A stretch of DNA of 64,000 nucleotides from an uncultured Acidimicrobiia bacterium (GTDB lineage: Bacteria; Actinomycetota; Acidimicrobiia; Spongiisociales; Spongiisociaceae): positions 558,001 to 622,000 of the forward strand of contig OY282370.1 of assembly GCA_958295745.1 (NCBI GenBank), given 5' to 3'. The notes beneath the pieces are model-generated. The model worked only from the letters and a program-made list of their open reading frames with translations, ran no database searches and was not told the origin of the DNA. Positions 377 to 48,680 of the stretch are shown piece after piece. Both the position numbers and the translations under genes were made by a program. Position 1 is the stretch's first letter, and every line of letters begins with the position of its first letter.

Positions 377-695
377 GCCGCCCCGCCCCGGACACCTGGG
401 TTCCCGATGCCTATGACCTCCATACCCACCAAGGTATCACCCCCCACCGACACAACCCACCCCACCCACCGCGACCTGGAACTCAAGCCTTGCCCGGCGC
501 AGGTCGTGTGGATCTTCCAGTGCCTCCACGCCGACCGGCGGTTCAGACCCGTTCATTGCTCATAACCCCTGCTTATGCCGCCCGCGAGACGGGCTGTCGT
601 TTACCCCGGCGTCGGCACGCCTTCGTTCTGTCACTACCCTCTTGTACTCTTGTGCTCATGATATTCTGACATCCGAGGGGAGTGGAAAGTCCGAG
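377..695. other. Divergent intergenic region, no gene seen
   Basis: This 319-base stretch separates the divergent recC and methyltransferase starts. It includes a pyrimidine-rich block at about 437-470 (many CCCACC units). I see no convincing gene, tRNA or well-spaced sigma70 promoter. Base composition falls toward the methyltransferase side, marking the left border of the AT-richer accessory DNA. Confidence 0.5.
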
Positions 696-3485
696 ATGCC
701 CGGATCAACGACAGAAGAACAGATGCGCCACCTGCTCGACGGGGCCGACTTCTATGGGCTGTTCCTCGGGTTGGGTTGGGACAACCCCCCGGACACCGGC
801 CCTGTACAGATCGTCAACACCGGGCTGACAGCCCGCCCGGTGGCTACGAAGAAGGGTGTGGCGGTGTGGCTGGTGGTCTGGGACGCGCCTCCGCACGGTC
901 TAGAGAAGCGGCGGGTATCCCTCGCCCTGCGTAAATACTCCCCGATGGGACGCCTCGTGCTGTTCGACACCCCGGAGGAGGTGCTGTTCTTATGGCCGGA
1001 GCGTACCCAATCAGGCTGGGACCGTCTTGTTGAACATGTGTACCCGAAGGGGAGCGGCGGTGGGAACGCTGTATTGCAACGGCTCGAACGGGTGCGATTC
1101 ACTCTGGCTGACCAGGCGACACTCACAACGCTCAACGTTCTGGATCGGATGCGGCTTTCGTTCAATGTAGAGAAGGTAACTAGATCCTTCTACAGGGAAT
1201 TTCAATCTCACCACAAGGATCTTGTAGAACATATTGAGGGCATTTCGGATGAAAAGGACCGTGATTGGTACGCTTCTGTTCTGCTAAATCGGCTAATGTT
1301 CATCTATTTTATCCAACGCAAAAGATTTTTGGACGGCGACCAGAGCTACCTCCGCAACCAGCTAACTAAGGTTCGCGAATTATTTGGAACCGATCAGCCG
1401 TTTACTTTCTTCCGTGAGTTCTTGCTCCCTTTGTTTCACCAGGGTCTCGGCCACCCGAACCCGCAGTATGACAACTCCACAATAGAATGCCTCGTCGGTA
1501 GTCTACCATATGTGAACGGTGGCATATTCGAGACTCATCAACTTGAAGATGAATACGATATCTACATTGAAGATAAGGCATTTGAGCGTCTCTTCAAGTT
1601 CTTTGACAAGTGGCGATGGCATCTGGACGAGAATCCTACCGGTGCCTCTAATGAGATCAGTCCTCACATTCTCGGGTTTATCTTTGAGCAATCTATTAAC
1701 CAGAAAGAAATAGGAGCTTACTATACCAAACCCGATGTGACTAGGTATATGGTAACATCTTCGATCATACCAGCTATCATAGATAGACTTGTCGCTGCTG
1801 GACTTGAAGATCCGTGTATCCTACTAGCAAGCTCCGGCGCTGACTACATTCATAAAAGTCTTGGCTACGGAGTTCATAAGTCCCTTCCACAAGGGGAGTT
1901 GAATCCAGCAGAAAAGCCTGACTGTTCTCTAGATATCGCCCTGCCTGGGGAACGGTGGTGCGACGTACTATACCGTCGACAATGGTACGACAATCTGGTT
2001 GAAAGGTTGTCGGACAAAGAGATAGAATGGACTATTGATGATTTGGTTACATATAATCTAGATCTAACAACTTTGATGGATGATTATCTGTCGTTACTCA
2101 GTAGCAAAAAGGAAATAGAGACAGCCTTCGAAGTGCTTCGGTCTTTAAATATTTGTGACCCAACAGTAGGATCTGGAGCATTCCTGTTGGCAGCCGTAGA
2201 GTTACTCGATCCTATGTACACCGCCGTAATAGAAACAGCCCGTTACTTTAACAGAGCCTCGGATAATAAGGAAAACGAAATTACTTTCCTGGCTGAAGCC
2301 TCTGTATATACTAGTGAACGGTACTGGATGCTAAAAACAGCCTGCCTCAATAACTTATATGGTGTTGATCTAATAGCCGAAGCTGCTGAGATCACCAAGT
2401 TGAGATTATTTCTGAAACTCGTAGCGCAACTAGACAATATATCGCAGGTAGAGCCATTACCTGATTTGGACTTCAATATCAGAGTTGGTAATTTGCTGGT
2501 CGGATTAGCTGATTCCGAAGATGCCGTCCAACGGTTTGGGGATCGTTTACCACTTTCCGACTTAGACTTAGCTCGCCACGCTGCGGAGATGGCAGCAGAC
2601 GCTTATAAAGATTTTATAAAGGCTCAGTCTACTGACATAGAAAACGGACCGACTCTCTCAACTAAACGTAAACAGCAATTAGAAACGAAGGTCTGTATGG
2701 CGACTCACATAGCTGACTCAGCACTGCACCAGATGCGTAATGAACAGCCTTCTCTAAGTAATTGGCGCAGTACCCATCAACCTTTCCATTGGTTCACTGA
2801 GTTTCCTGCTGTCTGGCAACAGAAGGGATTTGATGTGATCATTGGAAACCCCCCATACATCAATACCAAAGGAAAACGCAAGACCGAAATCAATTACAGC
2901 TGGTATGGGTACTCTACCCAGTATTGTCCCGATATCTACGCGGTTTGTACAGAAAGAGCATCAAGCCTCCTGAACGACCAAGGGCGGTTAGCAATGATCG
3001 TTATGCACTCTTTGTGTTTCAACGATAAATTTAGCACATTGCGCGATTTCTTAATTAAACAATTTCCATCACTGTGGATCTCCTCTTATGCAAATATTCC
3101 TGATGGCTTATTCTCAGGTAGTGCCTCAGTTCGTAATTCGATTATTATTGGTAGCAGAAGAGGAAAAACAGGCCTATTAACAACACGTTGTCGCCGCTGG
3201 ACAGCAATTAGTAGAGAAACTATGTTCAACGGAGTGAAATATATCCATCCTCACAATGCATTATTACATTTACATGGAAAACCAAAATGGCCATTTGTAG
3301 ATGACCTAAATATATCTGATGCATTTTGCAATTTGATTAACAAAAATACGCCCTTGTCCGCAAATCTTGCGCCAAATAAACGCTACATCAACGGACCAGC
3401 TTTGTATTATAAAGATGTTGCTCGATACGTTCTTGGTGTCGCCAACACCCCCCCCCCCGCATTAATAATGACGGAGAAATTATAA
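696..3485 (+). CDS. Type II/IIG-like N6-adenine DNA methyltransferase, prematurely ended at a poly-C tract
   Basis: The protein has the amino-methyltransferase motif order of Eco57I/PglX-type enzymes: an AYYTKPDVTRYM segment, SAM-binding motif I DPTVGSGAF (Asp at about residue 488) and catalytic NPPY (about residue 718). It should methylate adenine N6 in host DNA as the modification half of a defence system. I start it at ATG 696, which has GGAAAG seven bases upstream; the frame is open from 642. The frame ends 27 bases after a run of eleven C residues, giving a nonsense tail ALIMTEKL. The natural C-terminus continues in another frame to 3895. The gene is clearly AT-richer than the flanking chromosome, so it was probably acquired. 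The PLD-helicase gene follows and is likely cotranscribed. Confidence 0.85.
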   Translation: MPGSTTEEQMRHLLDGADFYGLFLGLGWDNPPDTGPVQIVNTGLTARPVATKKGVAVWLVVWDAPPHGLEKRRVSLALRKYSPMGRLVLFDTPEEVLFLWPERTQSGWDRLVEHVYPKGSGGGNAVLQRLERVRFTLADQATLTTLNVLDRMRLSFNVEKVTRSFYREFQSHHKDLVEHIEGISDEKDRDWYASVLLNRLMFIYFIQRKRFLDGDQSYLRNQLTKVRELFGTDQPFTFFREFLLPLFHQGLGHPNPQYDNSTIECLVGSLPYVNGGIFETHQLEDEYDIYIEDKAFERLFKFFDKWRWHLDENPTGASNEISPHILGFIFEQSINQKEIGAYYTKPDVTRYMVTSSIIPAIIDRLVAAGLEDPCILLASSGADYIHKSLGYGVHKSLPQGELNPAEKPDCSLDIALPGERWCDVLYRRQWYDNLVERLSDKEIEWTIDDLVTYNLDLTTLMDDYLSLLSSKKEIETAFEVLRSLNICDPTVGSGAFLLAAVELLDPMYTAVIETARYFNRASDNKENEITFLAEASVYTSERYWMLKTACLNNLYGVDLIAEAAEITKLRLFLKLVAQLDNISQVEPLPDLDFNIRVGNLLVGLADSEDAVQRFGDRLPLSDLDLARHAAEMAADAYKDFIKAQSTDIENGPTLSTKRKQQLETKVCMATHIADSALHQMRNEQPSLSNWRSTHQPFHWFTEFPAVWQQKGFDVIIGNPPYINTKGKRKTEINYSWYGYSTQYCPDIYAVCTERASSLLNDQGRLAMIVMHSLCFNDKFSTLRDFLIKQFPSLWISSYANIPDGLFSGSASVRNSIIIGSRRGKTGLLTTRCRRWTAISRETMFNGVKYIHPHNALLHLHGKPKWPFVDDLNISDAFCNLINKNTPLSANLAPNKRYINGPALYYKDVARYVLGVANTPPPALIMTEKL
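3448..3458 (+). repeat. Homopolymer C11 tract in the methyltransferase gene
   Basis: Eleven consecutive C residues follow GCCAACA. With 11 Cs the frame stops at 3485. With 12 or 9 Cs the upstream frame would read through NTPPPRINND or NTPPRINND into the 3461-3895 frame. Long homopolymers inside methyltransferase genes are classic slipped-strand phase-variation sites. A sequencing or assembly miscount gives the same picture. Confidence 0.9.
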
Positions 3486-3895
3486 GTTTCGCGTATGAAA
3501 GAACACTTTTCTTTAGCACGACAGAACACAGAGATCTAGCACAATTAATATTGTCGGGCCTTTGGGGTTATATATGGTGGTTAATTTATGGTGATGAATT
3601 CTCTGTTATTAAAAGAGTAGTAATCTCATTTCCAGCCGGAATAACTGATCTAGAGATTTCACCCCAAGCTCCTAAATTATTTGATCTAGCAACTGCACTC
3701 CAAAAGGAGTTGCCAAAACACCTCAAATGGAAGGCCAATGCTGGACTGAAAGTCGGACGATATGACTTACGTGAATGTCGCCATATAACTGATGAGGCAG
3801 ATTGGCTACTCGCCGAGGCATGGGGACTAACTGAAGAACAGTTCTACGCTGCCGGTAATCTGAGAGACCGGATGACGTTTGGACGGAAGGACTAG
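3449..3895 (+). pseudogene. Out-of-frame C-terminal part of the methyltransferase
   Basis: This frame is open from the poly-C tract to a TAG at 3893-3895. It encodes RINNDGEIISFAYERTLFFS and then a segment including GLWGYIWWLIYGDEF and EADWLLAEAWGLTEEQF. Type IIG/PglX-like methyltransferases end in this kind of target-recognition and C-terminal helical region. A TTG at 3551 could in principle start a separate 114-residue protein. However, there is no good ribosome binding site, and the reading sense begins immediately after the C run, so this is best read as the continuation of the 696 gene. It becomes part of a roughly 1,065-residue enzyme when the tract has 12 or 9 Cs. Confidence 0.8.
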
Positions 3896-3901
3896 TAATC
3901 T

Positions 3902-6900
3902 ATGCCGAGAATTCTCGATAACATGTCTGCCTGGCTGGGGGAGGCCCTGAAGAGATCGCTTCGTGAGAACACCTTCTCTTTCGACGCAGCGGTCGGTTAC
4001 TTCAACTTGAGGGGTTGGGGGCTTATAGCCAATCAGGTGGACACCCTGCCCGGCAGAGATGGCAGTCCGAAGGTTCGCCTGCTAGTGGGGATGACAGAGC
4101 ACCCTCACGACGAGATGCGCCGCCTGCAGCGTCTCCGTGCACTCCCCACGATGGACCCAGAGACCGCCTCTAAGAACTCGGAGAAGGCATTTGCAGAGAT
4201 GCGCAACCAGTTGGAAGTCGGCCTGCCCACCGAAGCCAACGAGAAGACGCTGCAGCAGTTGCGCTCCCAGATCGATTCCGGCGAGGTAGAGGTGCGCCTG
4301 TTCTTGGCCCACCGTCTCCATGCCAAGCTGTTCCTCTGCCACAAGAGCAGTGTTGACAACCCGCGCACCGGCTATGTCGGTTCGTCGAACCTCACCCGGG
4401 CTGGGCTGTCCGAACAGGGTGAGCTGAACGTCGATGTGACCGACCACGATTCCACCGCGAAGCTCGCCGCGTGGTTCGACGAGATGTGGACCCATCATCT
4501 CACGCTGCCAGCGAACATCGAATTGGTAGAGCTACTCGATAAATCATGGGCCTCGAAACACGCTTTGCATCCCTACCTGGTGTACCTGAAGATGGCCTGG
4601 CATCTGTCAAAGGAGGCCCGGGATGGCCTCATAGAGTACGGACTACCCCTGTCCATGTCGAACAAGTTGCTCGATTTTCAGACCGCCGCGGTGAACATCG
4701 CCGCCCGGATAGTCCACCAGCGCGGCGGGGTCATCGTCGGAGATGTGGTCGGCTTAGGCAAGACTCTGATCGCCACCGCCATCGCCCGTCTGCTCCAAGA
4801 GGAGCACGGTACCGACACGCTCATCATATGCCCGAAGAACCTGGTAACCATGTGGGAACAACACATGGATGAGTACGACATCCGGGGTCGGGTGGTGCCG
4901 CTTTCGATGGTACCCCGTGGAGCATTGACAGAGCTGCGGCGATACCGGCTGATCGTGGTGGATGAATCCCACAATCTCCGCAATCGGAAGAGCAAAAGCT
5001 GGCAGGCCCTGCGGACCTACATCGCCGACAACGACTCGAAGGTGGTGCTGCTGTCGGCCACCCCGTACAACAAGGACGTGTCCGACATCGATGCCCAGAT
5101 GAGCCTTTTCATAGGCGACGATATAGATCTCGGCATCCGCCCAGAACGGGCTATCGCCGCAATGGGAGAAGCTGAGTTCGCGCTGAAATGTGAAGGCCGT
5201 ATGTCCACCATCGCCGCCTTCCGAAGAGGCGAACACCGGGATGATTGGCAGGAGCTGCTGTCGCAGTTCATGGTTCGCCGCACCCGCCGCTTCATCCAGG
5301 ACAACTACGCCATCAAGGACAGCCAAGGCCGTCAGTATCTGCTGTTCGAGAACGGCGGCAAGTTCTACTTCCCGGAACGGATCGCGAATCCGGTCGAGCG
5401 GGACTTTTCGCGCGATGACCCGGCCCGCGAGATGATCGCCCAGTCCACCCTCGACTCGGTGGCCGCCCTGCGCCTTCCTCGGTACAGGATCGGAGAACAC
5501 CTAACAGATGACACCGCTCTCAACGAAGAAGAACAAGAACTGCTGGACGACCTCAACAGGTCGGCCCGCGGCAACCTAATGGGGTTCACAAGGGTGATGC
5601 TCTTCAAGCGGCTGTCCTCTTCGGGACCTGCGTTCCTCGCCACCCTCAGACGACACGCCCTGCGAAACCTGATAGCCACCTACGCGATAGACAACGGGCT
5701 GCCCGTCCCGATCGGATCGGTGGACAAGTCACTGTGGTACACCGAAACCGACCAGGACACCGGCGACCTGTTCGAGGAAGGCGGACTAGAAGATGGCGGC
5801 CCTCTGGATAATTCCGTCCCGGCGGCGGCTTACCACGAACTGCGCCAAGCCGGTCGCCGCAACGTGCGCTGGCTGAGATCGGAGCTGCTCAAACCCCAGT
5901 TCTCCGACGACCTCGGCCACGACACCGCCGTCATCCGCGACCTTCTCGACCGGTTCGGACAGTGGAATCCTGACAAGGACGGCAAACTCGACCAGCTCGC
6001 AGACATCATCACCAAACATTCCCCCGAGAAGATCATCGTGTTCACCGAATACGCCGACACCGCCTTCTACATCGCCGCGGAACTCAGTCGCCGCGGTGTG
6101 GACGGTGTGGAAGCGGTCACCGGGTCATCGGACGACCCGCTAGCGCTGGCCTGTCGCTTCTCGCCCGTCTCCAACAACTTTGCCCCGCCGGATCGAAAAC
6201 TGATGGTGCTGGTATCGACCGACGTGCTATCGGAGGGCCAGAACCTCCAAGACGCCCACATCGTGGTCAACTACGACCTGCCGTGGGCCATCGTCAAACT
6301 CGTCCAGCGGGCCGGAAGGGTGGACCGGATCGGCCAGCAATCCGAACAGGTGCGCATCTACTCACTGCTCCCGGCAGGAAAGATCGAGGAGGAGATAGAT
6401 CTGAGGGGCCGCATCAGAGAAAGGCTCAGGGACAACGCGCAGCTGCTCGGCTCCGACGAGAAGTTCTTCGGCGACCCGAGCGAACAGGCCATGATCGCCG
6501 GCTTGTTCGACGAACACTCCGAATACCAGCTGGCGGACGACGGCGGAGACGTAGACCCCGTGTCGATGGCGTATGAAATATGGCGTTCGGCGGCCGCCGA
6601 CCATCCCGATCTCGCGGCCCAGGTGGAAAACCTGCCCGACGTTGTCTACTCCACTCTGGACAACAAGGCCGACAACCGGCCGTCCGCCGGGGTGCTGGTC
6701 CACTCCAAGACGGTTACGGGATCCGACGCGTTCGCGTTCGTCTCCGCCGCCGGGCGAGGGGAACGGATCACCCCCCAGAGAGCCCTGACAATGGCGGCAT
6801 GTGAACCGGATGAAGCCCCCGCCACCCGTCTGCCCGAACACCACGATCTGGTGGCGGCGGCCTTCGCGGGCCCGCTCACCGCCCCTCCCGAACGCCCAGG

Positions 6901-7243
6901 CGAGACTCCGACCGGCGTCCGAGGGCGGGTCTGGAACCGGCTGGAACCCCGCAGGGATTCCTTAACAGACAACCTGCTGTTCAGCCGAGATGACCTGGAA
7001 GCCGCCTTGAACGACCTAGCGTCATACTCGTTGATGCAGCCAGCCACCGAGAGGCTCGCAAAGGCTTTGAGCCAACGGAGCAACGAAGACTTGGCCGCCC
7101 TGCTGGTCAACCTCCACCAAGACGGACGGCTATGCGAGTACCCCGACACCTCCGACCGAGAAGGCCGACCCGAACCAAGGGTCATCTGCTCGATGGGATT
7201 CACCACAGCCCCACCTAACACGCCCACCTCTGTTCAGGAATAG
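3902..7243 (+). CDS. PLD-family nuclease fused to SNF2-type helicase
   Basis: The N-terminal domain carries one phospholipase-D-type HxK motif (LHAKLFL, about residues 138-145) followed by GSSNLTRAG, as in PLD nucleases of restriction systems. A superfamily 2 SNF2/RapA-like helicase follows: Walker A GDVVGLGKT (about 280), DESHNLRN (about 352), LLSATPYN (about 384) and the C-terminal lobe QRAGRVDRIGQQ (about 803). The start lies six bases after the methyltransferase stop, which implies translational coupling. The protein probably translocates along DNA and cuts with its PLD domain when DNA lacks the partner's methylation. The arrangement resembles the split parts of DISARM (DrmD helicase, DrmC PLD, DrmMI methylase) or Hma, but no DrmA/DrmB genes are present. 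The exact system type is unassigned. GC is higher than in the methyltransferase gene. Confidence 0.85.
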   Translation: MPRILDNMSAWLGEALKRSLRENTFSFDAAVGYFNLRGWGLIANQVDTLPGRDGSPKVRLLVGMTEHPHDEMRRLQRLRALPTMDPETASKNSEKAFAEMRNQLEVGLPTEANEKTLQQLRSQIDSGEVEVRLFLAHRLHAKLFLCHKSSVDNPRTGYVGSSNLTRAGLSEQGELNVDVTDHDSTAKLAAWFDEMWTHHLTLPANIELVELLDKSWASKHALHPYLVYLKMAWHLSKEARDGLIEYGLPLSMSNKLLDFQTAAVNIAARIVHQRGGVIVGDVVGLGKTLIATAIARLLQEEHGTDTLIICPKNLVTMWEQHMDEYDIRGRVVPLSMVPRGALTELRRYRLIVVDESHNLRNRKSKSWQALRTYIADNDSKVVLLSATPYNKDVSDIDAQMSLFIGDDIDLGIRPERAIAAMGEAEFALKCEGRMSTIAAFRRGEHRDDWQELLSQFMVRRTRRFIQDNYAIKDSQGRQYLLFENGGKFYFPERIANPVERDFSRDDPAREMIAQSTLDSVAALRLPRYRIGEHLTDDTALNEEEQELLDDLNRSARGNLMGFTRVMLFKRLSSSGPAFLATLRRHALRNLIATYAIDNGLPVPIGSVDKSLWYTETDQDTGDLFEEGGLEDGGPLDNSVPAAAYHELRQAGRRNVRWLRSELLKPQFSDDLGHDTAVIRDLLDRFGQWNPDKDGKLDQLADIITKHSPEKIIVFTEYADTAFYIAAELSRRGVDGVEAVTGSSDDPLALACRFSPVSNNFAPPDRKLMVLVSTDVLSEGQNLQDAHIVVNYDLPWAIVKLVQRAGRVDRIGQQSEQVRIYSLLPAGKIEEEIDLRGRIRERLRDNAQLLGSDEKFFGDPSEQAMIAGLFDEHSEYQLADDGGDVDPVSMAYEIWRSAAADHPDLAAQVENLPDVVYSTLDNKADNRPSAGVLVHSKTVTGSDAFAFVSAAGRGERITPQRALTMAACEPDEAPATRLPEHHDLVAAAFAGPLTAPPERPGETPTGVRGRVWNRLEPRRDSLTDNLLFSRDDLEAALNDLASYSLMQPATERLAKALSQRSNEDLAALLVNLHQDGRLCEYPDTSDREGRPEPRVICSMGFTTAPPNTPTSVQE

Positions 7244-7482: not shown

Positions 7483-8271
7483 TTAGAAAAAAGGCTGGTG
7501 ATCAGGAAAATCTACCCTACCTAGAGCCTGCCTACTGAGATGTTCCCCGAGTTCCGTGGCTTCTGCTCTGCGCCGACTAACAATCTTGCCTGCTTGTTCC
7601 CGTGTGATCCACGGTTTAGTAAAATCATTCTCCCATTGTCTAACTGATGGTACTGATGAATTTACTTTGCAGAGAAAGTCATGCCAACGGTGAAATATCT
7701 CATACAATTTATCAGCTGCGCTATGTAGGCTACCCATAGCCAAACCGAATTTTTGTCGATCTTTATCAAGATGAGCAACATATTTATTCGCATATGGTCT
7801 CACTTTATCAGACATTTTATCTAGTTCCTGTATATCCTGATAGACTATCTTCGGATCAAGATGGACTCCTTCATAGGAGATATTGTCAAAAGCTCTAAGA
7901 TACCGTTTATACATATCATAATGGTACTCTGTATTTATACTGTCTGGATACCTACTAATCCACCATTCACGAGTCAAAATATGGGCTTCGTCCTTTATAT
8001 TATTCAAAAGTAAATATAGAGACCTAGTCCGTTTATTTTTGTCACACATACTACGCACAACCATTGCCAAAGATCTTAGATAATTTTCGTTAACCCATTC
8101 GACAAAAAAGCTACTATCAAGCTGGGCAAAACCAACGATATCATTCCAACTTTCAAAGGCTCTACGCTTGAACCATATTCCACGAACTTGTTCAGCAATA
8201 TCACCTTGTATCCAATCACGCCAATAGGCTATCCTCACGGAGATATCTTTAGTTTCTCCTTTGTCGCTCAT
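7483..8271 (-). CDS. AbiU2-like HEPN-domain protein (tentative)
   Basis: This is a 262-residue, all-helical-looking soluble protein with markedly low GC. Residues 158-169 read RPYANKYVAHLD, like the basic-residue/His segment near the C-terminal helix of AbiU2-type HEPN proteins (toxin-like RNases or their relatives). The segment VVRSMCDKNKRTRSLYLLL (about 71-89) also resembles that group. I prefer ATG 8271 over 8310 because AAAGGA lies six bases upstream of it. The gene sits between a decayed and an intact copy of the MNT-HEPN 3' end, so it may be cargo inserted at this site. The HEPN assignment rests on short motifs only. Confidence 0.5.
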   Translation of the reverse strand: MSDKGETKDISVRIAYWRDWIQGDIAEQVRGIWFKRRAFESWNDIVGFAQLDSSFFVEWVNENYLRSLAMVVRSMCDKNKRTRSLYLLLNNIKDEAHILTREWWISRYPDSINTEYHYDMYKRYLRAFDNISYEGVHLDPKIVYQDIQELDKMSDKVRPYANKYVAHLDKDRQKFGLAMGSLHSAADKLYEIFHRWHDFLCKVNSSVPSVRQWENDFTKPWITREQAGKIVSRRRAEATELGEHLSRQALGRVDFPDHQPFF

Positions 8272-8382
8272 AACAATCCTTTTTCTTCCATTGATCTGAC
8301 AATATAGCAATGAAGTAGGTATAATAATACCATACTGGGAATATTAGTATCCTGAGTAGCACCAGGCGCGGTTACTTACCAC

Positions 8383-9330
8383 TTAACCTGCGAGCGGTTG
8401 GCCGGTCAGTAGGTCGTAACCCGCCACCCGATTCTCCAGTGCTTCCACCATGTCGAGCACCCGGCGCGCGTCGGGTACCTCGCCGCTGAACTGGCGGGCG
8501 GTGTAGGCCGCTACCGCACACCCCGCCCTCGTCAATTCCTCGACCATCTCCGGCGTGGCCGCATCGTCTACCCATCCCTCGTTCCAGTAGCGGGATTCCA
8601 TGTGCCAACGGGTGATCTCGTCTGCCGTCTCCTCAGACAGTCGAGAACGCACAGCCCGGCGATGGGGTTCGGCCATCTCGGCGCAGAGCTCGTTGATGTC
8701 ATGCCCCCAAGCCAGGCTTTCCCGGTCGGCGCCGAGATGGATCAGCGCCTTCAATGCAGCCTCCACGGTGTACTGGACGTGGGCGCACGCCCACCCGAAC
8801 CGGACAGCCGCCGCCAAGAAAGCAAAATCCTCATCGCCTTTCTGCTGTTCCAACTGCTCCTCGCGATCAGGCAGCAATCTCCCGCGGAGGGACACCAGCC
8901 CGCGCAGTGTTTCGTGAAGCCTTGTCAATGCCACTTCGTAGTCGCTGATAGGCATGACCATCTCCTTACCCCAGTTCACTTTGCCGGTGCCGCGGTCAAC
9001 CAGTACAACACCCTCCCTGGCGGCCCTGCTCTCGAACGAGGTGCGCACCTGCTCGGTGCGCACCTTCCATTCGGGGCGGTCGGTGACGAACACCTCAACA
9101 GGATGCCCGGCCGCTGCGCTCGCCAGCGAAGACAGCTCCTTCACCCGCTCAGAGCGGGTCCGGTAATCCAGGTCGTCATAGATCGCAGCGAGATCGATGT
9201 CGCTGCGTTCTGTGGCGTCGCCGCGGGCCACCGAGCCGAACAACACCACCCTGCTCACACCAACATCCGCCAGCGCCGCGGCGGCCCGTTCGGCATCCCC
9301 CCGGCGCGGCGGCGCCGTTCTTACAGGCAT
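8383..9330 (-). CDS. Nucleotidyltransferase-HEPN fusion (MNT-HEPN) protein
   Basis: Residues 1-110 are a minimal nucleotidyltransferase: VVLFGSVARGD followed by SDIDLAAI, which supplies the GS and DxD metal-binding residues. Residues about 165-260 form a HEPN domain, including WACAHVQYTVEAALKALIHLG and MESRYWNEG. In two-gene MNT/HEPN systems the MNT enzyme AMPylates and silences the HEPN RNase; here both are joined in one 315-residue chain. The fusion may be a self-controlled toxin-antitoxin unit or a substrate-modifying enzyme (kanamycin nucleotidyltransferase-like). Fragments of its 3' end (7257-7411) and 5' leader (13072-13150) occur elsewhere in the island. Unlike its AT-rich neighbours it has chromosomal GC. 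Confidence 0.8.
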   Translation of the reverse strand: MPVRTAPPRRGDAERAAAALADVGVSRVVLFGSVARGDATERSDIDLAAIYDDLDYRTRSERVKELSSLASAAAGHPVEVFVTDRPEWKVRTEQVRTSFESRAAREGVVLVDRGTGKVNWGKEMVMPISDYEVALTRLHETLRGLVSLRGRLLPDREEQLEQQKGDEDFAFLAAAVRFGWACAHVQYTVEAALKALIHLGADRESLAWGHDINELCAEMAEPHRRAVRSRLSEETADEITRWHMESRYWNEGWVDDAATPEMVEELTRAGCAVAAYTARQFSGEVPDARRVLDMVEALENRVAGYDLLTGQPLAG

Positions 9331-11558: not shown

Positions 11559-12137
11559 TCAAGTCTCCTGTTCTATCTCCTGTATATTACTGGCTTTTTG
11601 TCTCTCGGCTTCCTTGTGTCGCTGTAATGCCTTCATCTCTTCAATATATGACTCAATTTCAGCTATATTTCTGTCATGCTCCTTTGAAATATTCAACAGG
11701 GATGCTAACGCTAGTAGTAACCAACATAATAGCCAAATAGTTACAATAGAAAGGAAGTTAATTACCCAATTAATTTTGATTTCCGCAACCATTATAGCAG
11801 TCATCAAAGACAAAATTGACGAGGCAAAGGCTATCCAACATGTAATTGTATAAGGTAGTCGTATTTCGTTTTCTGACTTATCAACCATACGAACTATCTC
11901 ACCATAGTTAGAGCCTTGCAGTTGAGTCCGGAGAGTACTCCACCTATGCCAAACAAAACCCAGGATAGCGAATGATAAGGTCAGAATTGCAAAAAACCAT
12001 GTCTGCTTTAGTTTGAGATCCGTTTGAATAAAAATGATTGCTACACATACACTAAAGGCAGAGGCTATCCATAGATCCCAGTGCCATAAGCACCTAAGAC
12101 GAAGAACCCAACGGCGAGGCTCAGCTGGGTTCTTCAT
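11559..12137 (-). CDS. Four-helix membrane protein with charged C-terminal coil, unknown function
   Basis: I do not recognise the family. The 192 residues contain four probable membrane segments in two hairpins, near residues 17-35, 38-56, 96-117 and 125-147. A charged, probably coiled-coil tail follows (ISKEHDRNIAEIESYIEEM and onward). The start overlaps the end of the 12121-13011 gene by 17 bases, so the two are translated together. Small membrane proteins paired with a cytosolic partner are common effectors in anti-phage systems. That role here is inference from context, AT content and coupling. Confidence 0.7.
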   Translation of the reverse strand: MKNPAEPRRWVLRLRCLWHWDLWIASAFSVCVAIIFIQTDLKLKQTWFFAILTLSFAILGFVWHRWSTLRTQLQGSNYGEIVRMVDKSENEIRLPYTITCWIAFASSILSLMTAIMVAEIKINWVINFLSIVTIWLLCWLLLALASLLNISKEHDRNIAEIESYIEEMKALQRHKEAERQKASNIQEIEQET

Positions 12138-13011
12138 AATTTAGCTCGTCTTCAATATCCACGACAACTTTATTTCTACTTTGTGCTTCAAGCAGCTCAT
12201 GTTGAGTTTGCATTAGAACTTCATTTGACACTTCAATATCATCCTCACCAGAGGGAACTACAATAGGAGTCTCAACTGCTCCACCATTCACGTCTAGAAC
12301 AAATCGAGAGTCATCTTTAGTATTGAGGTCAGATCCAATCAAAGTTGCCCTACCATAACCAAGGCGTACATGATCCATAGCTTGTTGAGATAAATCGGAA
12401 GATATATCAATATATCCGTCCTTTTCAGCCTTAGCTTTGATATCTAATATCCCTGCCTTTAGCTCGCTCATCATATCTCTAATTTTCTGGCGACCTGTCC
12501 AGTTTGGATTCGGATATAATAGTCGAACTTTGAACGTCGAAACTCCGCCTACAGACTCCAGCCATTGATCTATTGTTTTACTGTATTTAAACTGTCTTAT
12601 AGTCCAAAAATGGGTACCATTAGCGCTGAGGAGTGCCTGCAGACTACCCGTCACGGTAGTCGGTCGTACTTCACCAGGAATGAGCTGAAATGTAACCAAG
12701 CAGTGAACATCACTTATGAGGAAGGGAACTACCACACCACTAGAAGCCTCACCTCGAATGAAGTCTTTCTTGGCTTCATCCCATTCTACAGTTGAGAAAT
12801 CGCCCTCTCTAACGAAACCAATATGTCCAGCCCAGAGACCATCTTCCGGCCTGGTAAATCTAGATAACCTCCAAGTGCGTGAATATCGAGTAACTTGTGT
12901 ACCCGCTACCCACGACTCTTTAAGTGCAGAGCGGAAGTATTCTGATGGGCCGTGCTCGCCTAGACCCTGCAGTTTGATCTCGGCATGAGAGACTCGAAAA
13001 TCTTTTTCCAT
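12121..13011 (-). CDS. Hypothetical 296-residue soluble protein of an overlapping two-gene unit
   Basis: No family is recognised. The protein has no signal peptide or membrane segment. It looks mixed alpha/beta in its first two thirds, including WAGHIGFVREGDFSTVEWDE and VVVPFLISDVHCLVTFQLIP, with an acidic C-terminal tail ending DIEDELNYEEPS. A helical stretch near residues 175-200 (IRDMMSELKAGILDIKAKAE) could mediate assembly. It is the first gene of a unit with the four-helix membrane protein, which it overlaps. The gene is AT-rich against its surroundings. A decayed leader of the MNT-HEPN gene lies about 60 bases upstream. Confidence 0.7.
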   Translation of the reverse strand: MEKDFRVSHAEIKLQGLGEHGPSEYFRSALKESWVAGTQVTRYSRTWRLSRFTRPEDGLWAGHIGFVREGDFSTVEWDEAKKDFIRGEASSGVVVPFLISDVHCLVTFQLIPGEVRPTTVTGSLQALLSANGTHFWTIRQFKYSKTIDQWLESVGGVSTFKVRLLYPNPNWTGRQKIRDMMSELKAGILDIKAKAEKDGYIDISSDLSQQAMDHVRLGYGRATLIGSDLNTKDDSRFVLDVNGGAVETPIVVPSGEDDIEVSNEVLMQTQHELLEAQSRNKVVVDIEDELNYEEPS

Positions 13012-35304: not shown

Positions 35305-35384
35305 CCTACATCAGCGCCGAGGAAAAACCTACATTAGCGCTCAGGAAATTCCTACATTAGAGTTACGGGGAATCCTACATCAGT
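35305..35384. repeat. Four 23-bp direct repeats (CCTACATYAG cores) upstream of a DUF4143 ATPase gene
   Basis: CCTACATCAG or CCTACATTAG begins at 35305, 35328, 35351 and 35374. The period is therefore exactly 23 bases, close to two helical turns. The spacer parts (GGAAA-rich) are less conserved. The last copy reaches to within about 10 bases of the ATPase start. As 23 is not a multiple of three the array is not a coding repeat; an operator array is the likeliest reading. Confidence 0.8.
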
Positions 35385-35394
35385 GTGGTATCCA

Positions 35395-36681
35395 ATGACT
35401 GACGCGATGTTGCCCAGGCACATATCACCCCAGATAGACGAGGCCTTGGAGTCGGCGCGGGTCACGCTCATCCACGGGCCCCGACAGACCGGCAAGACCA
35501 CCCTCGCCCGGCAGACCTGCGACCGGATAGGCGGCGTCTTCACCACCCTCGACGACCCGGCTCTGCTGGAGGCGGCGCGCCGCGACCCGGTGGGCTTCGT
35601 AACCCGGTCGCGCCCTCTGGTGATCGACGAAATCCAGCGTGCCGGGGATCCACTGGTGACCGCCATCAAGATGGCCGTGGATATGGACCCTGCGCCGGGC
35701 CGGTTCATCATCACCGGCTCCACGAACTTCCTGACCGTGCCCACGGTGTCGGAGTCGCTGGCCGGGCGAATGGCCATCATCGAACTATGGCCGTTCTCCC
35801 AGGGCGAGCTCACCCGCCGCGGGGCCGAGTCCTTCGTTCGGCAGGCCTTCGATGATCCCGGCGCGTTGCGCGACGGGCCGGCGGGGATATACACCCGCGA
35901 GCAGTATCTCGAGATGGTCTGCGCCGGCGGTTACCCGGCCGTGACCGACCTCACGGCGGCCCGGCGCCGCCGATGGTACCGAGACTACCTCCATACCGTC
36001 ATCCAACGCGACATCGTCGAGTTGGCTGACCTGCGCCGCGCCGAGGCCGTGGCGCCGGTGCTGGCCACCGCCGCCGCGCTGACTGGTCAACCGTTGAACA
36101 CGGCCCGCCTCTCCCGAGGCGCCGGTGTCGATGTCCGCACCGCCGAGAGATACCTCTCCTGGCTCACCACCGTGTTCTTGGTTCATCGCGTACCGATGTG
36201 GACCAGAAACCTGTCCACCAAGGCGGGCAAGACGGCCAAACTGTACGCAACCGACAGCGGACTCACCGCCCATCTCGCCAACAAGGACCCGACCGCGTTG
36301 AGCCGACCGACCGACACGTCCGTGGGCGGAATCGTCGAAACCTTCGTCGTCAACGAGGTGTCCAAGCAGCTCACCTGGAACGACACCGGCGCGCGGCGCC
36401 ACCACTATCGCGATCACCGCGGTGCGGAGATAGACCTGATCCTCGAAGCTCCCGACGGGCGGATAGTCGCCATAGAGGTCAAGGCCGCCGTCTCACCGCG
36501 CGCCTCCGCCGCCCGATGGCTCGCCTGGCTCCGGGACCGTCTGGACCGTATCGGCAACGACTTTGTGCACGGCTATGTGCTGCACCTGGGACCCAACCGG
36601 GTCAGCCTCGGCGACCGGCTCACCCTGCTGCCCCTCGAAGCCCTCTGGACCCCGACCGGCTACACTGGAAACGGTATCTGA
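35395..36681 (+). CDS. AAA ATPase with C-terminal DUF4143 domain
   Basis: 428 residues from ATG 35395 (an in-frame GTG lies at 35383). Walker A is GPRQTGKTT (residues about 28-36) and Walker B is LVIDEIQRA (about 75-83). The DUF4143 region has the typical VKAAVSPRASAARWLAWLRD (PD-(D/E)XK-like EIDLILE...EVKA). These archaeal/bacterial STAND-like ATPases are common accessory genes; their function is unproven, with defence or toxin-antitoxin roles suggested. No ribosome binding site is visible; the 23-bp repeat array ends at the start. Confidence 0.85.
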   Translation: MTDAMLPRHISPQIDEALESARVTLIHGPRQTGKTTLARQTCDRIGGVFTTLDDPALLEAARRDPVGFVTRSRPLVIDEIQRAGDPLVTAIKMAVDMDPAPGRFIITGSTNFLTVPTVSESLAGRMAIIELWPFSQGELTRRGAESFVRQAFDDPGALRDGPAGIYTREQYLEMVCAGGYPAVTDLTAARRRRWYRDYLHTVIQRDIVELADLRRAEAVAPVLATAAALTGQPLNTARLSRGAGVDVRTAERYLSWLTTVFLVHRVPMWTRNLSTKAGKTAKLYATDSGLTAHLANKDPTALSRPTDTSVGGIVETFVVNEVSKQLTWNDTGARRHHYRDHRGAEIDLILEAPDGRIVAIEVKAAVSPRASAARWLAWLRDRLDRIGNDFVHGYVLHLGPNRVSLGDRLTLLPLEALWTPTGYTGNGI

Positions 36682-37425: not shown

Positions 37426-38328
37426 TCAGCGATGTCCTTCCACGGAAGTTACAAGCTTCCATAGGATGCCCTCGGAACCTACGACCAGTTCACGACACCG
37501 ACGGTAATCTACTTCGGTCAGTTCATCGATATGAGCAGCCTTGTTTCTGAACTCGGTCGTGAGGGTAACGATTGCGAGCCGTAATCCGTCCGGATCCAAG
37601 AGCCATTGGGAACCATTCCAATCAGTCGCCAACCTCAAGAAGGCGCGCATCAGCTCGCTTGTATGACGACGCTGTCGACTATGAAATACTGTCTGTATGA
37701 AATGGGCAATAGTTCCCAACTCTGGGGGCTTTCGACTTGGATCGGCACAGAACGCAGCTACTCGTCCAATGTCTCTATCTCTTTTGTCACTTGCCAAGTC
37801 CAGAGATTCTGCTTGCTGGGCCAGGGGCCGGATCAAGCAGTTCACGACTTCCGTCTCGACTGTCTTGCAGAGGCCGATGATGACCGGGGACCATTCGAGG
37901 TCTATTTCTGAACGGAGACTATCTGCCAGATACTCGGTTGTGGCCAGGAAACGTAACGCTTCTGACGATAGACGGTTGGCGCGGTTCTCTGATGTCAATA
38001 ATAATCGCTCCGCTTGTTTCTGCTTATCAACCTTGACCGCACCAAGAAGGTAAGCACTCAGTTGTTCAATCTTTTTATGATCAGGACTCGTTCCGGCTTT
38101 GACCTTGTACAGTGATCGTAGATAGCCATAGCAACCATTACATAACCTTTTTGACCCTTCACTCCTATAGATCACAATCGACTTTGATTTCTTTGACTTG
38201 CTACACCGAAAACAGTCAAATGCCGTTGCCTTGGCAAAGCGGAATTGCTGAAGAGGTCCTATCTGAGAATAAGTTTTCGTCAGGGTTGAAGGTATCGGGT
38301 TCAAGTCAGGTGGACTTCCAGAGCACAT
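37426..38328 (-). CDS. Zinc-ribbon plus HEPN-like protein, unknown role
   Basis: The 300-residue protein has a four-cysteine zinc ribbon: CFRCS (C39, C42) and CNGCYG (C63, C66). The rest is helical and ends with EFRNKAAHIDEL, giving R261-x4-H266, the catalytic RNase motif of HEPN domains. The segment WSPVIIGLCKTVETEVVNCL fits a HEPN helix. A nucleic-acid-binding ribbon joined to a HEPN RNase suggests RNA cleavage or a toxin-like role. It is AT-richer than its neighbours. A perfect inverted repeat lies six bases upstream of the start codon, and TAGAAT within it could be the -10 box. Confidence 0.65.
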   Translation of the reverse strand: MCSGSPPDLNPIPSTLTKTYSQIGPLQQFRFAKATAFDCFRCSKSKKSKSIVIYRSEGSKRLCNGCYGYLRSLYKVKAGTSPDHKKIEQLSAYLLGAVKVDKQKQAERLLLTSENRANRLSSEALRFLATTEYLADSLRSEIDLEWSPVIIGLCKTVETEVVNCLIRPLAQQAESLDLASDKRDRDIGRVAAFCADPSRKPPELGTIAHFIQTVFHSRQRRHTSELMRAFLRLATDWNGSQWLLDPDGLRLAIVTLTTEFRNKAAHIDELTEVDYRRCRELVVGSEGILWKLVTSVEGHR

Positions 38329-46037: not shown

Positions 46038-46117
46038 CCCAACCAAGAATACGGAAATCGCCGGTCAGATGGAGGATTTCGGTAGATGCTCTACACCAGG
46101 CCGTCTATCCGCTTCTA

Positions 46118-46738
46118 TCATCGAGCTGCCGGAAACCATTCTTGCATCAGGCTTTTGAACTCCTGGAACGATCTGTCCGTGCAACGGCGCAGGGATACCT
46201 TTTCGGCCATCCGTAGATAGAGGGAAGCGCTGCGAGGTTGCCTCGTCTCTCGTAATGCCGCATGGAATGCTTCCTTGGGTTGATCGGGCTTATACTCGCC
46301 TTCCTGCAGCCATCCCTGATCCCTCAACCAGCTACGAAGCTGCGGCCTGCGGCCTTTCCACCCCGCCACCTCGTCAACTTGGGGAGAGTCGCTCCATACC
46401 CACACCTCCAGCTCAGGCGACAGTACGATAGCCCGCGCTCGACCCTTCCACGGCAATCGGACGAAATCATTATTGAGCGACTCTTGTAGCTCCTCCCTGG
46501 GGGTGGTTTCTCGTCCACTCCCTTCGTGATCGAACATCAGTAGCCCGTGTTCATACCGGTTCGAGAAGCTGGATAAGAATTGTACGCCTCGTAACGCGCA
46601 ACCAGGATCATGTTGTGGATGAACCATTATCTCCACCTCGATCGGTCGTATGTCCAATGCCTTCGGCCTCGACAAGAGACCCTTTAACGTATATTCTATA
46701 TCCTTGTCGGCAGCGAGCACTAACAAATCTTTCTTCAT
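46118..46738 (-). CDS. Small TOPRIM-like acidic-motif protein paired with an AAA ATPase
   Basis: 206 residues from ATG 46738, which overlaps the ATPase stop (ATGA). The start reads MKKDLLVLAADKDIEYTLKG, with Asp11/Asp13 and Glu15, and a later acidic motif LLMFDHEGSG lies at about residues 67-76. The spacing of an N-terminal acidic strand and a later D-x-E strand resembles TOPRIM-like nuclease subunits such as those of OLD, RloB/AbiLii or AriB, though the fold cannot be proved by eye. Adjacency and coupling to an SMC/RecF-like ATPase support a two-component defence unit. Confidence 0.65.
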   Translation of the reverse strand: MKKDLLVLAADKDIEYTLKGLLSRPKALDIRPIEVEIMVHPQHDPGCALRGVQFLSSFSNRYEHGLLMFDHEGSGRETTPREELQESLNNDFVRLPWKGRARAIVLSPELEVWVWSDSPQVDEVAGWKGRRPQLRSWLRDQGWLQEGEYKPDQPKEAFHAALRETRQPRSASLYLRMAEKVSLRRCTDRSFQEFKSLMQEWFPAAR

Positions 46739-47991
46739 CCTAATATCCCTGAAGCAAGCAGCGTGCCGAGGTCCACCTCTTGATTCCATTCCCTAAGCAT
46801 CGGGTGTTCGGAACCTAATACTATATCTGTAGCCCCCTCATCGTTTTTGGCGAAACAGAGCACTTGTTTCGGATCAGATTCGTTCAACATTACGGGCGAA
46901 TGAGTAGCAAGGAGCACTTGAGCATCATAGACCGAGGAGAGAGAATCGTACATGGTTGTCACTGCCTTGGGATGAATCCCATTCTCTGGCTCTTCTATCA
47001 GGTATATTCCCTGAGAATCGATCAGATAGGCTGGCAGGGTGAGAGCCGTGAGCCGTAACGTACCATCGGAAACCAACCAGGAAGGAACCCCGTGTCCACC
47101 CCGATATTCATAGATCATATAGCAATGCCTATCCTCAGGACGCTCTGTAGTGGTGATATCGACCAGGTCAGGAAGAGCAGTACGCAAGTGATTTATCCAA
47201 GCATCATATCTTTCTTTGTTTTCTTTCCGTAAACGCGAGACCACCCAGGGTAGATTCGATCCATCAGGCAAGAATCCCCGAAATTTGGTCGGGGGGCTGG
47301 GCCGCCTGATCGCAAGGCTGTTGAGCACAAAACTCTGGACGCCCTGCTCCAGATAGTCTCGAAACCAAGTAGCGACAGGAAAGGAATTTTCGTCTGAGAT
47401 CAGGTTGCCGAAGGCTGACTTTTTGGGTCCCAGCTTGAAGGAAGGCTTCCAGCCTTTTCCCGCAGGATGCTTTTCGCTGTAGAAATTGTCGTTCCCACCC
47501 GGTGCCTTGTTGATCATTACTTTGGTGTCCTGACCGCGGATCTGTACTTGCAAAGTGCTGGGAGGAGTGATAGGCACGGGAAACAACTCCCGTTGAGGGG
47601 CTTCAACCACTGTGGCTTTCTTGAACAGAAGCGTCTCCGCTTTGAACTCGAACCCACGTTCTGTATCATCGAATCCAATCTCGACCTGGTACCTGACCGT
47701 ATCCATTTCCGGTTTCTCGATTATTTTTCTCAGTTCGTCGGGGATTCTTGCCTCCACCGCTAATTCGAAGCTGTCGCCTCGACCTTGGAAGAGGAGGCTC
47801 TCAGGATTAGGAGTACGACCGGCAATGGTTTCGTCCAACCCATCCGAGATCAGGTCACTAAGGAAGCCGACGGTGTCCAGAAAGGTGGTCTTACCTGACG
47901 CATTAGGGCCCACCAGGATATGAAAGGATTGCAACGGCCTTTGCGCATACCGCAGACAACGGTAGTTGAGAGCCTCGATGAGCGTGATCAT
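46735..47991 (-). CDS. RecF/OLD-like AAA ATPase (AAA_21 type)
   Basis: 418 residues. Walker A is GPNASGKTTFLD (residues about 28-39); Walker B is IYLIEEPENGIHPKA (about 320) and VSDGTLRLTALTLPAYL contains the ABC-type signature. The insert between them is long and charged. Such ATPases act as sensors or molecular clamps in PARIS, Septu, AbiL and Gabija-like systems. The gene lies between a sarcosine-oxidase-like gene and an XRE regulator, outside the main defence island, and is AT-richer than both. It is the first gene of its unit. Confidence 0.88.
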   Translation of the reverse strand: MITLIEALNYRCLRYAQRPLQSFHILVGPNASGKTTFLDTVGFLSDLISDGLDETIAGRTPNPESLLFQGRGDSFELAVEARIPDELRKIIEKPEMDTVRYQVEIGFDDTERGFEFKAETLLFKKATVVEAPQRELFPVPITPPSTLQVQIRGQDTKVMINKAPGGNDNFYSEKHPAGKGWKPSFKLGPKKSAFGNLISDENSFPVATWFRDYLEQGVQSFVLNSLAIRRPSPPTKFRGFLPDGSNLPWVVSRLRKENKERYDAWINHLRTALPDLVDITTTERPEDRHCYMIYEYRGGHGVPSWLVSDGTLRLTALTLPAYLIDSQGIYLIEEPENGIHPKAVTTMYDSLSSVYDAQVLLATHSPVMLNESDPKQVLCFAKNDEGATDIVLGSEHPMLREWNQEVDLGTLLASGILG

Positions 47992-48074
47992 CCGTTTCCT
48001 CCATCGAGCGCCGCCGTCGGAAGTTCCCTACCCGAACACCTGCGACTCTAATTGAATCGGCAAAGCCGCGCCTA

Positions 48075-48680
48075 TCAGAACGAGGGGGGTGAGGTGATTA
48101 TGAGCACACGGCAGGTCTGGTGCTCGTTCGTAGACATGACGTGAGGGACGGTGGCCGGGTAGAGGTATATATCTCCCGGAGTCAGCTCCACGCTGCCGAA
48201 CCCTTCCAGATCCACCTGCAGGCGCCCCTCCAAGACAAAAAGCATCTCCTCGCCCGCATGTCCGGCGTTCTCGGTGCGGACTCCCGGCTCGAAGTTGACC
48301 TCGCTCGGATCGATCAGCTGGGACCGCCCGCGGGTGAGGAACCGGGTGGTGGCGCCTTCGGTCAGCTCGTAGACCTCGCCCTCTCCGCGTCGTATCAGGC
48401 TCACCTGCGGCTTTCTCTGCGGCTGGAGCAGACCGTGGGCGGTGGCGCCGAGGGCTTGGGCCACGTTGTGGAGAGCTATCAGGCTCGGCATGGCCTTCCC
48501 GTTCTCGAGCTGGCTCAAGAACGGCTGAGAAAGCCCGCAACGGTCAGCAAGCTGCCGAAGGGTGAGGCCTTGGGCCTTCCGCAGCGTCCTGAGCGCCGTC
48601 CCCAGTGCGGAGGCCACCGCCTCCTCGTCGACCGCCGGAGGGGCTTGCCCGGCGATGGTTTTCACTGCCATGACCGCCAT
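48075..48680 (-). CDS. XRE-family regulator with C-terminal cupin domain
   Basis: 201 residues. A helix-turn-helix (LRQLADRCGLSQPFLSQLEN, about residues 41-60) is followed by a cupin sensor domain with GHAGEEMLFVLEGRLQVDLE and GDIYLYPATVPHVMST. GGGGAGG precedes ATG 48680. These repressors or activators sense small ligands in the cupin. It lies 31 bases after the amidohydrolase gene on the same strand and is probably cotranscribed with it, so it could be an autoregulatory sensor of that pathway. Confidence 0.88.
   Translation of the reverse strand: MAVMAVKTIAGQAPPAVDEEAVASALGTALRTLRKAQGLTLRQLADRCGLSQPFLSQLENGKAMPSLIALHNVAQALGATAHGLLQPQRKPQVSLIRRGEGEVYELTEGATTRFLTRGRSQLIDPSEVNFEPGVRTENAGHAGEEMLFVLEGRLQVDLEGFGSVELTPGDIYLYPATVPHVMSTNEHQTCRVLIITSPPSF

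Follow-up and report, generated by a model that had tools for sequence, protein, structure and literature searches.

Two adjacent genes in the 64,000-nucleotide stretch of DNA analysed here (the window) probably constitute a self-contained antiphage unit of the MAD3-MAD4 family, in which an ATPase would restrain a Toprim effector until a phage trigger arrives. The reading that we consider most likely is that of a horizontally acquired, PARIS-like sensor/effector pair. Computation supports the integrity of the pair, the Toprim-like fold of the second protein, the conserved acidic and lysine residues at its strand ends, the split of the pair from other MADS genes, and the defence company kept by its relatives, which includes MADS operons, HsdR/HsdM-S, HmaA/HmaB, BREX PglX, and a PLD-SNF2 helicase with a type IIG methylase. 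The original prediction of a candidate defence system is supported, relatives being linked to defence loci, whereas antiphage function is something that we infer.

The gene pair and its setting

Both genes lie on the minus strand and share an ATGA (46738..46735) that joins the stop of the ATPase gene to the start of its partner. The ATPase, our proposed sensor, is a 418-residue MAD3-like protein of the ABC/OLD type (OLD/RecF-type) encoded at 46735..47991 (-), and the partner, the proposed nuclease effector, is a 206-residue MAD4-like protein encoded at 46118..46738 (-). The coordinates, the coupling and every motif quoted in the original prediction are present in the sequence. The ATPase carries a Walker A motif, GPNASGKTT (residues 28-36), a signature-like VSDGTLR, a Walker B motif, IYLIEEPENGIHP, and an H-loop, ATHSP; EEPENGIHP is also present. 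It scores 488 bits against the NCBIfam model NF047739 (MAD3; cut-off 420), and in Pfam it matches AAA_21 (5.5e-30, 105.9 bits) and AAA_15 (54.1 bits). The partner scores 214.8 bits against NF047734 (MAD4; cut-off 160). These assignments bear out the proposed RecF-like ATPase and, together with the structural comparison below, its TOPRIM-like companion. Both proteins pass curated cut-offs, and almost all of the homologous loci retrieved preserve the order ATPase-partner; judged from sequence, the pair is therefore far beyond chance. The -4 overlap recurs in 39 of 81 homologous pairs, with a -1 overlap in nine and a gap of 0-30 nt in 27, and the ATGA indicates that ATPase and partner are translationally coupled. 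A promoter and terminator scan returned promoter matches at chance level only, none of them upstream of the pair on the minus strand.

The pair occupies a low-GC segment (46047..48074, unstranded) between an oxidase gene and an HTH-cupin gene. Its GC content is 0.522, compared with 0.639 in the remainder of the window and about 0.66 locally, in agreement with the earlier observation that the unit is AT-richer than its neighbours. Those neighbours, an N-methyltryptophan-oxidase/SoxA-type oxidase, the HTH-cupin regulator and an amidohydrolase, are metabolic or regulatory on both sides, so that this copy sits in catabolic surroundings and in no defence island. Nine genomes of the host's family have the HTH-cupin gene without the pair. 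Synteny with family members ends where the HTH-cupin gene does, at approximately 48065-48077, and past that point the genes differ, so that a clean empty site was not found in these relatives. Because of the low GC content and the nine relatives with the HTH-cupin gene but no pair, the segment was probably gained horizontally. An imperfect 20-nt direct repeat (80%) has its copies at the two edges of the pair, 46107-46126 and 47990-48009; we considered it as an insertion scar but set this reading aside, chance repeats of similar quality being found in the same region. Two other low-GC ORFs of the window, encoding proteins of about 300 residues without a family match (12121-13011 and 37426-38328, both minus-strand), were probably also acquired recently, to judge from composition. 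A separate protein at 35383-36681 (+) matches the PADLOC candidate PDC-S01 at 1.5e-148.

RecF and Toprim proteins act in DNA repair. A housekeeping role for a RecF-like ATPase with a RecR-like Toprim partner has this precedent and the metabolic neighbours in its favour, yet the distribution of the genes makes it very improbable. The MAD3-MAD4 family was found in 2 of 296 genomes sampled from the host's phylum, one being the window genome (which has a single MAD4) and the other carrying a MADS operon, and in none of 14 control genomes. This patchiness, the low GC content and the recurrent embedding of relatives in defence loci all speak against repair, and the homologues show no tie to a housekeeping operon.

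The fold and residues of the partner protein

Searched against Pfam, the partner gave no match at E<=1, and phmmer and profile searches of PDB sequences gave nothing credible; the assignment of its fold therefore rests on structure comparison. With 71 homologues as input, AlphaFold2 gave a model with a mean pLDDT of 95.7 and a pTM of 0.90. Its four leading Foldseek matches in the PDB are all C-terminal (Toprim) regions of OLD proteins (probability 0.97-1.00), with modest E values of 2.5e-3 to 1.1e-2, and a viral structure library added an RloB-like protein (probability 0.98). The model thus supports the nuclease-like Toprim alpha/beta fold that had been predicted for the 206-residue protein. 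OLD nucleases, Gabija GajA and AbiL share the architecture of an ABC ATPase with a Toprim domain; OLD and GajA, however, are single polypeptides and not two genes, and the sequence similarity of all three to the window pair is confined to the ATPase motifs.

Conserved residues of the partner are found where successive strands end. D11 follows strand 3-9 and belongs to DKDIE (residues 11-15); D44 follows strand 35-39; D70 closes strand 62-70 within FDHEGSG (69-75); E109 and E111 follow strand 101-106; and K150 and K155 lie further on. The invariance of E109, E111, K150 and K155 in 80 homologous loci is partly built in, as these residues lie within the patterns used for retrieval; in 16 loci that came from a profile search and are free of that bias, D44, D70 and the same four residues were kept in 16 of 16. 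OLD enzymes use E377/D381, D431/D433 and S478/E480 together with an Arg or Lys (PMC7049728). When mapped by sequence and not by superposed coordinates, the partner has counterparts for D431/D433, S478/E480 and the role of K562. The glutamate of Toprim motif 1 is not retained, A10-D11 standing in its place; D11 is a possible substitute, and the variable E15 is also near that position. In the DxD motif D70 is invariant, while E72, at the second aspartate position, varies among E, A, H and D. Because the motif-1 glutamate is replaced by A10 and position 72 is variable, we regard the partner as Toprim-like in its predicted fold, with catalysis that, if any, would be atypical.

The original prediction that the motifs of the partner differ from those of AriB proved accurate. 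PARIS (AriA-AriB) likewise comprises two genes, for an OLD-type ATPase and a Toprim-fold partner; the AAA_15/AAA_21 content expected of its ATPase is found in the window protein, and the AriA profile matches at 9.5e-32. The PARIS partner is defined by DUF4435 (PF14491) at >= 27 bits (PMC9122126). This domain was absent from the window partner in the Pfam search, which rules out PARIS proper, and the essential catalytic glutamate of AriB (E26) corresponds to A10/D11.

Relatives of the pair and their neighbourhoods

A pattern-based scan of one genome per species (84,980 species) yielded 80 loci, which a tree of both proteins divides into three groups, each separated from the rest by a branch with SH-aLRT support of 99-100. 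MADS, reportedly the methylation-associated defence system of Maestri et al. (2024), is an eight-gene antiviral system and the source of the names MAD3 and MAD4. With a complete MADS operon, carried by a Piscinibacter plasmid, as the source of query genes, 11 of the 80 loci were identified as MADS loci. A second group of nine loci, all from Pseudomonadota, has HsdR and an HsdM-HsdS fusion followed after a 4-nt overlap by the pair, wherever the contig reaches; such type I restriction-modification operons are seen in L065 (3570-11421), L057 and L066, and in L065 a 241-residue ORF without a Pfam match comes after the pair. The remaining 60 loci, from many phyla, make up a pair clade that includes the window copy, whose closest relative, from a member of the Caldilineaceae, is 65% identical over both proteins. 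Among plasmids the one MAD4 match was a full MADS operon, and phage records gave none.

The window genes resemble their MADS counterparts in gene order and coupling and pass the MADS3 and MADS4 cut-offs, but they are 38% (MAD3) and 32% (MAD4) identical to the proteins of one MADS operon, fall in the separate pair clade, and have no methylase, specificity, kinase, MAD7 or MAD8 gene nearby. None of the other mad genes adjoins the pair or occurs in the window or within 20 kb to either side of the window. Were the pair what is left of a decayed MADS locus, its equivalog scores would be explained; this we consider highly implausible, and reject, on the strength of two intact reading frames with conserved motifs and of the grouping with stand-alone pairs. 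The two-gene form is also common to distant phyla, and MAD5 and MAD7 have no match in the host genome, in a search run without a positive control.

Defence genes of other systems neighbour the pair in 13 of the 60 pair-clade loci, about a fifth. Eight of these are Hma loci (one with a fragment only), where the pair lies between or beside HmaA and HmaB, two have BREX PglX, and one each has a PLD-SNF2 helicase with a type IIG methylase, an SNF2 helicase with AddAB-like genes, and an MrfA-type helicase. The AddAB-associated locus (L027, 5801-17276), in which an SNF2 helicase, the pair, and AddB-like and then AddA-like helicase-nucleases run in one direction, is a possible composite defence operon by its gene content. 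Of the pair-clade loci, 28 extend for 5 kb or more to either side of the pair, and in 22 of these it stands alone, as assessed with profiles built for this analysis; since only these were applied, neighbouring partners may have gone unrecognised. Some stand-alone pairs adjoin housekeeping genes, such as those for valyl-tRNA synthetase (L018) and SecA (L021). In 15 Planctomycetota loci from a profile search of 392 genomes, several on short contigs, the same profiles recognised no neighbouring methylation-system gene. That so many loci are stand-alone suggests that the pair is able to act alone.

The Hma-linked relatives invite comparison with HEC-01, a candidate that PADLOC describes as Hma-embedded. 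HEC-01A is the best PADLOC match of the ATPase (4.8e-41, full length; mad3, 1.9e-28), and homologues of the window pair are truly embedded in Hma loci. HEC-01B, however, matches the partner at only 0.0022 (15.8 bits), mad4 doing no better (0.002), and the HEC-01B proteins of two loci (L113 and L114) have DGPSD/EGPFD in place of ADKDIE. An hhalign comparison of MAD4 with two HEC-01B proteins was not significant (E 0.46), with PELEvW/TEAW and PKEA/PKEF lining up.

Because the pair recurs beside methylation systems, a guard function is attractive: the pair would watch over a methylation-based system located elsewhere in the cell, firing when a phage inhibits it, much as PARIS senses the anti-restriction protein Ocr (PMC12409363). 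Homologues lie in or beside MADS, type I, Hma, PglX and type IIG/PLD-helicase loci, and the host has candidates for a guarded system. A second defence locus at 642-7243 (+) comprises an Eco57I/type IIG-like methylase (642-3485), a small ORF and a C3a139/DrmD-like PLD-SNF2 helicase (3902-7243, +); homologues of its methylase and helicase (34% and 42%) lie directly upstream of the pair in another locus (L010). Elsewhere in the genome (L123, 6787-14056; C1:1544000-1563000) HmaA, at 1347 bits to the PADLOC model, is followed by an HmaB-like methylase, the two making up an Hma system. Guarding in trans is nevertheless unlikely to be the function here, as most pair-clade loci have no methylation-system neighbour and the window methylase-helicase locus is 40 kb from the pair and on a different strand. 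Adjoining that locus are genes for a weakly matching HEPN_AbiU2-like protein (7483-8310, -) and an MntA-like nucleotidyltransferase (8383-9330, -), which by sequence are a possible HEPN-MNT toxin-antitoxin pair (7483-9330).

Proposed mechanism and implications

We propose, by analogy with PARIS, that the MAD3-like ATPase, as an ATP-bound oligomer, would keep its MAD4-like partner inactive; that the ATPase, on binding a trigger that comes from the phage (perhaps an anti-restriction protein or abnormal DNA), would release or activate the partner; and that the freed partner would cut nucleic acid, either tRNA or DNA, stopping phage growth at the cost of the cell. PARIS uses the same two kinds of protein in this way (PMC12409363; PMC9122126): AriB is sequestered by a hexamer of AriA and, once a phage protein such as Ocr has bound, is released and cleaves tRNA (PMC12409363). 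It is from this parallel that we infer the oligomer, sequestration, trigger, target and abortive outcome, and the antiphage and nuclease activities of the window pair are likewise putative. The same two-gene logic, with mobility and tight coupling, would suit a plasmid-defence or toxin-antitoxin-like addiction module, in which the ATPase restrains a Toprim toxin and its loss or disturbance kills the cell. We think this improbable; single deletions in PARIS are non-toxic, which excludes a toxin-antitoxin reading there (PMC9122126).

Pairs of an ATPase with a Toprim protein are of a known kind, and MADS has already been named among the systems that join a Toprim domain to an ABC ATPase (PMC12409363). 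BREX loci are known to recruit ATPase-Toprim modules (PMC12839542), and the idea of candidates embedded in Hma loci is likewise established (PMC12988326). The suggestion that the partner might represent a new branch holds in part: the families are not new, as both proteins already carry the names MAD3 and MAD4, but the lineage that stands alone without other MADS genes, together with its portability, appears to be unrecorded, no description of such a lineage having been found in the open literature searched. In an ATPase tree with distant ATPases as outgroup, the branches to which are very long, both the MADS and the type I loci nest within the diversity of the stand-alone pairs, a hint of capture. 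Going further, and tentatively, the pair may be a portable, self-sufficient immune module travelling by itself among many bacterial phyla, with a Toprim site lacking the motif-1 glutamate, that MADS, type I restriction-modification, Hma and BREX-like systems have repeatedly captured as an alarm and effector firing when the methylation system is inhibited.

If our favoured interpretation as a self-contained unit is correct, the MADS-equivalog label assigned by annotation pipelines names a separate and wider-spread two-gene system after one of its hosts. As a small unit that is readily cloned, the stand-alone form would make the role of mad3-mad4 inside MADS directly testable, along with the general question of why defences based on methylation acquire ATPase-Toprim pairs again and again.
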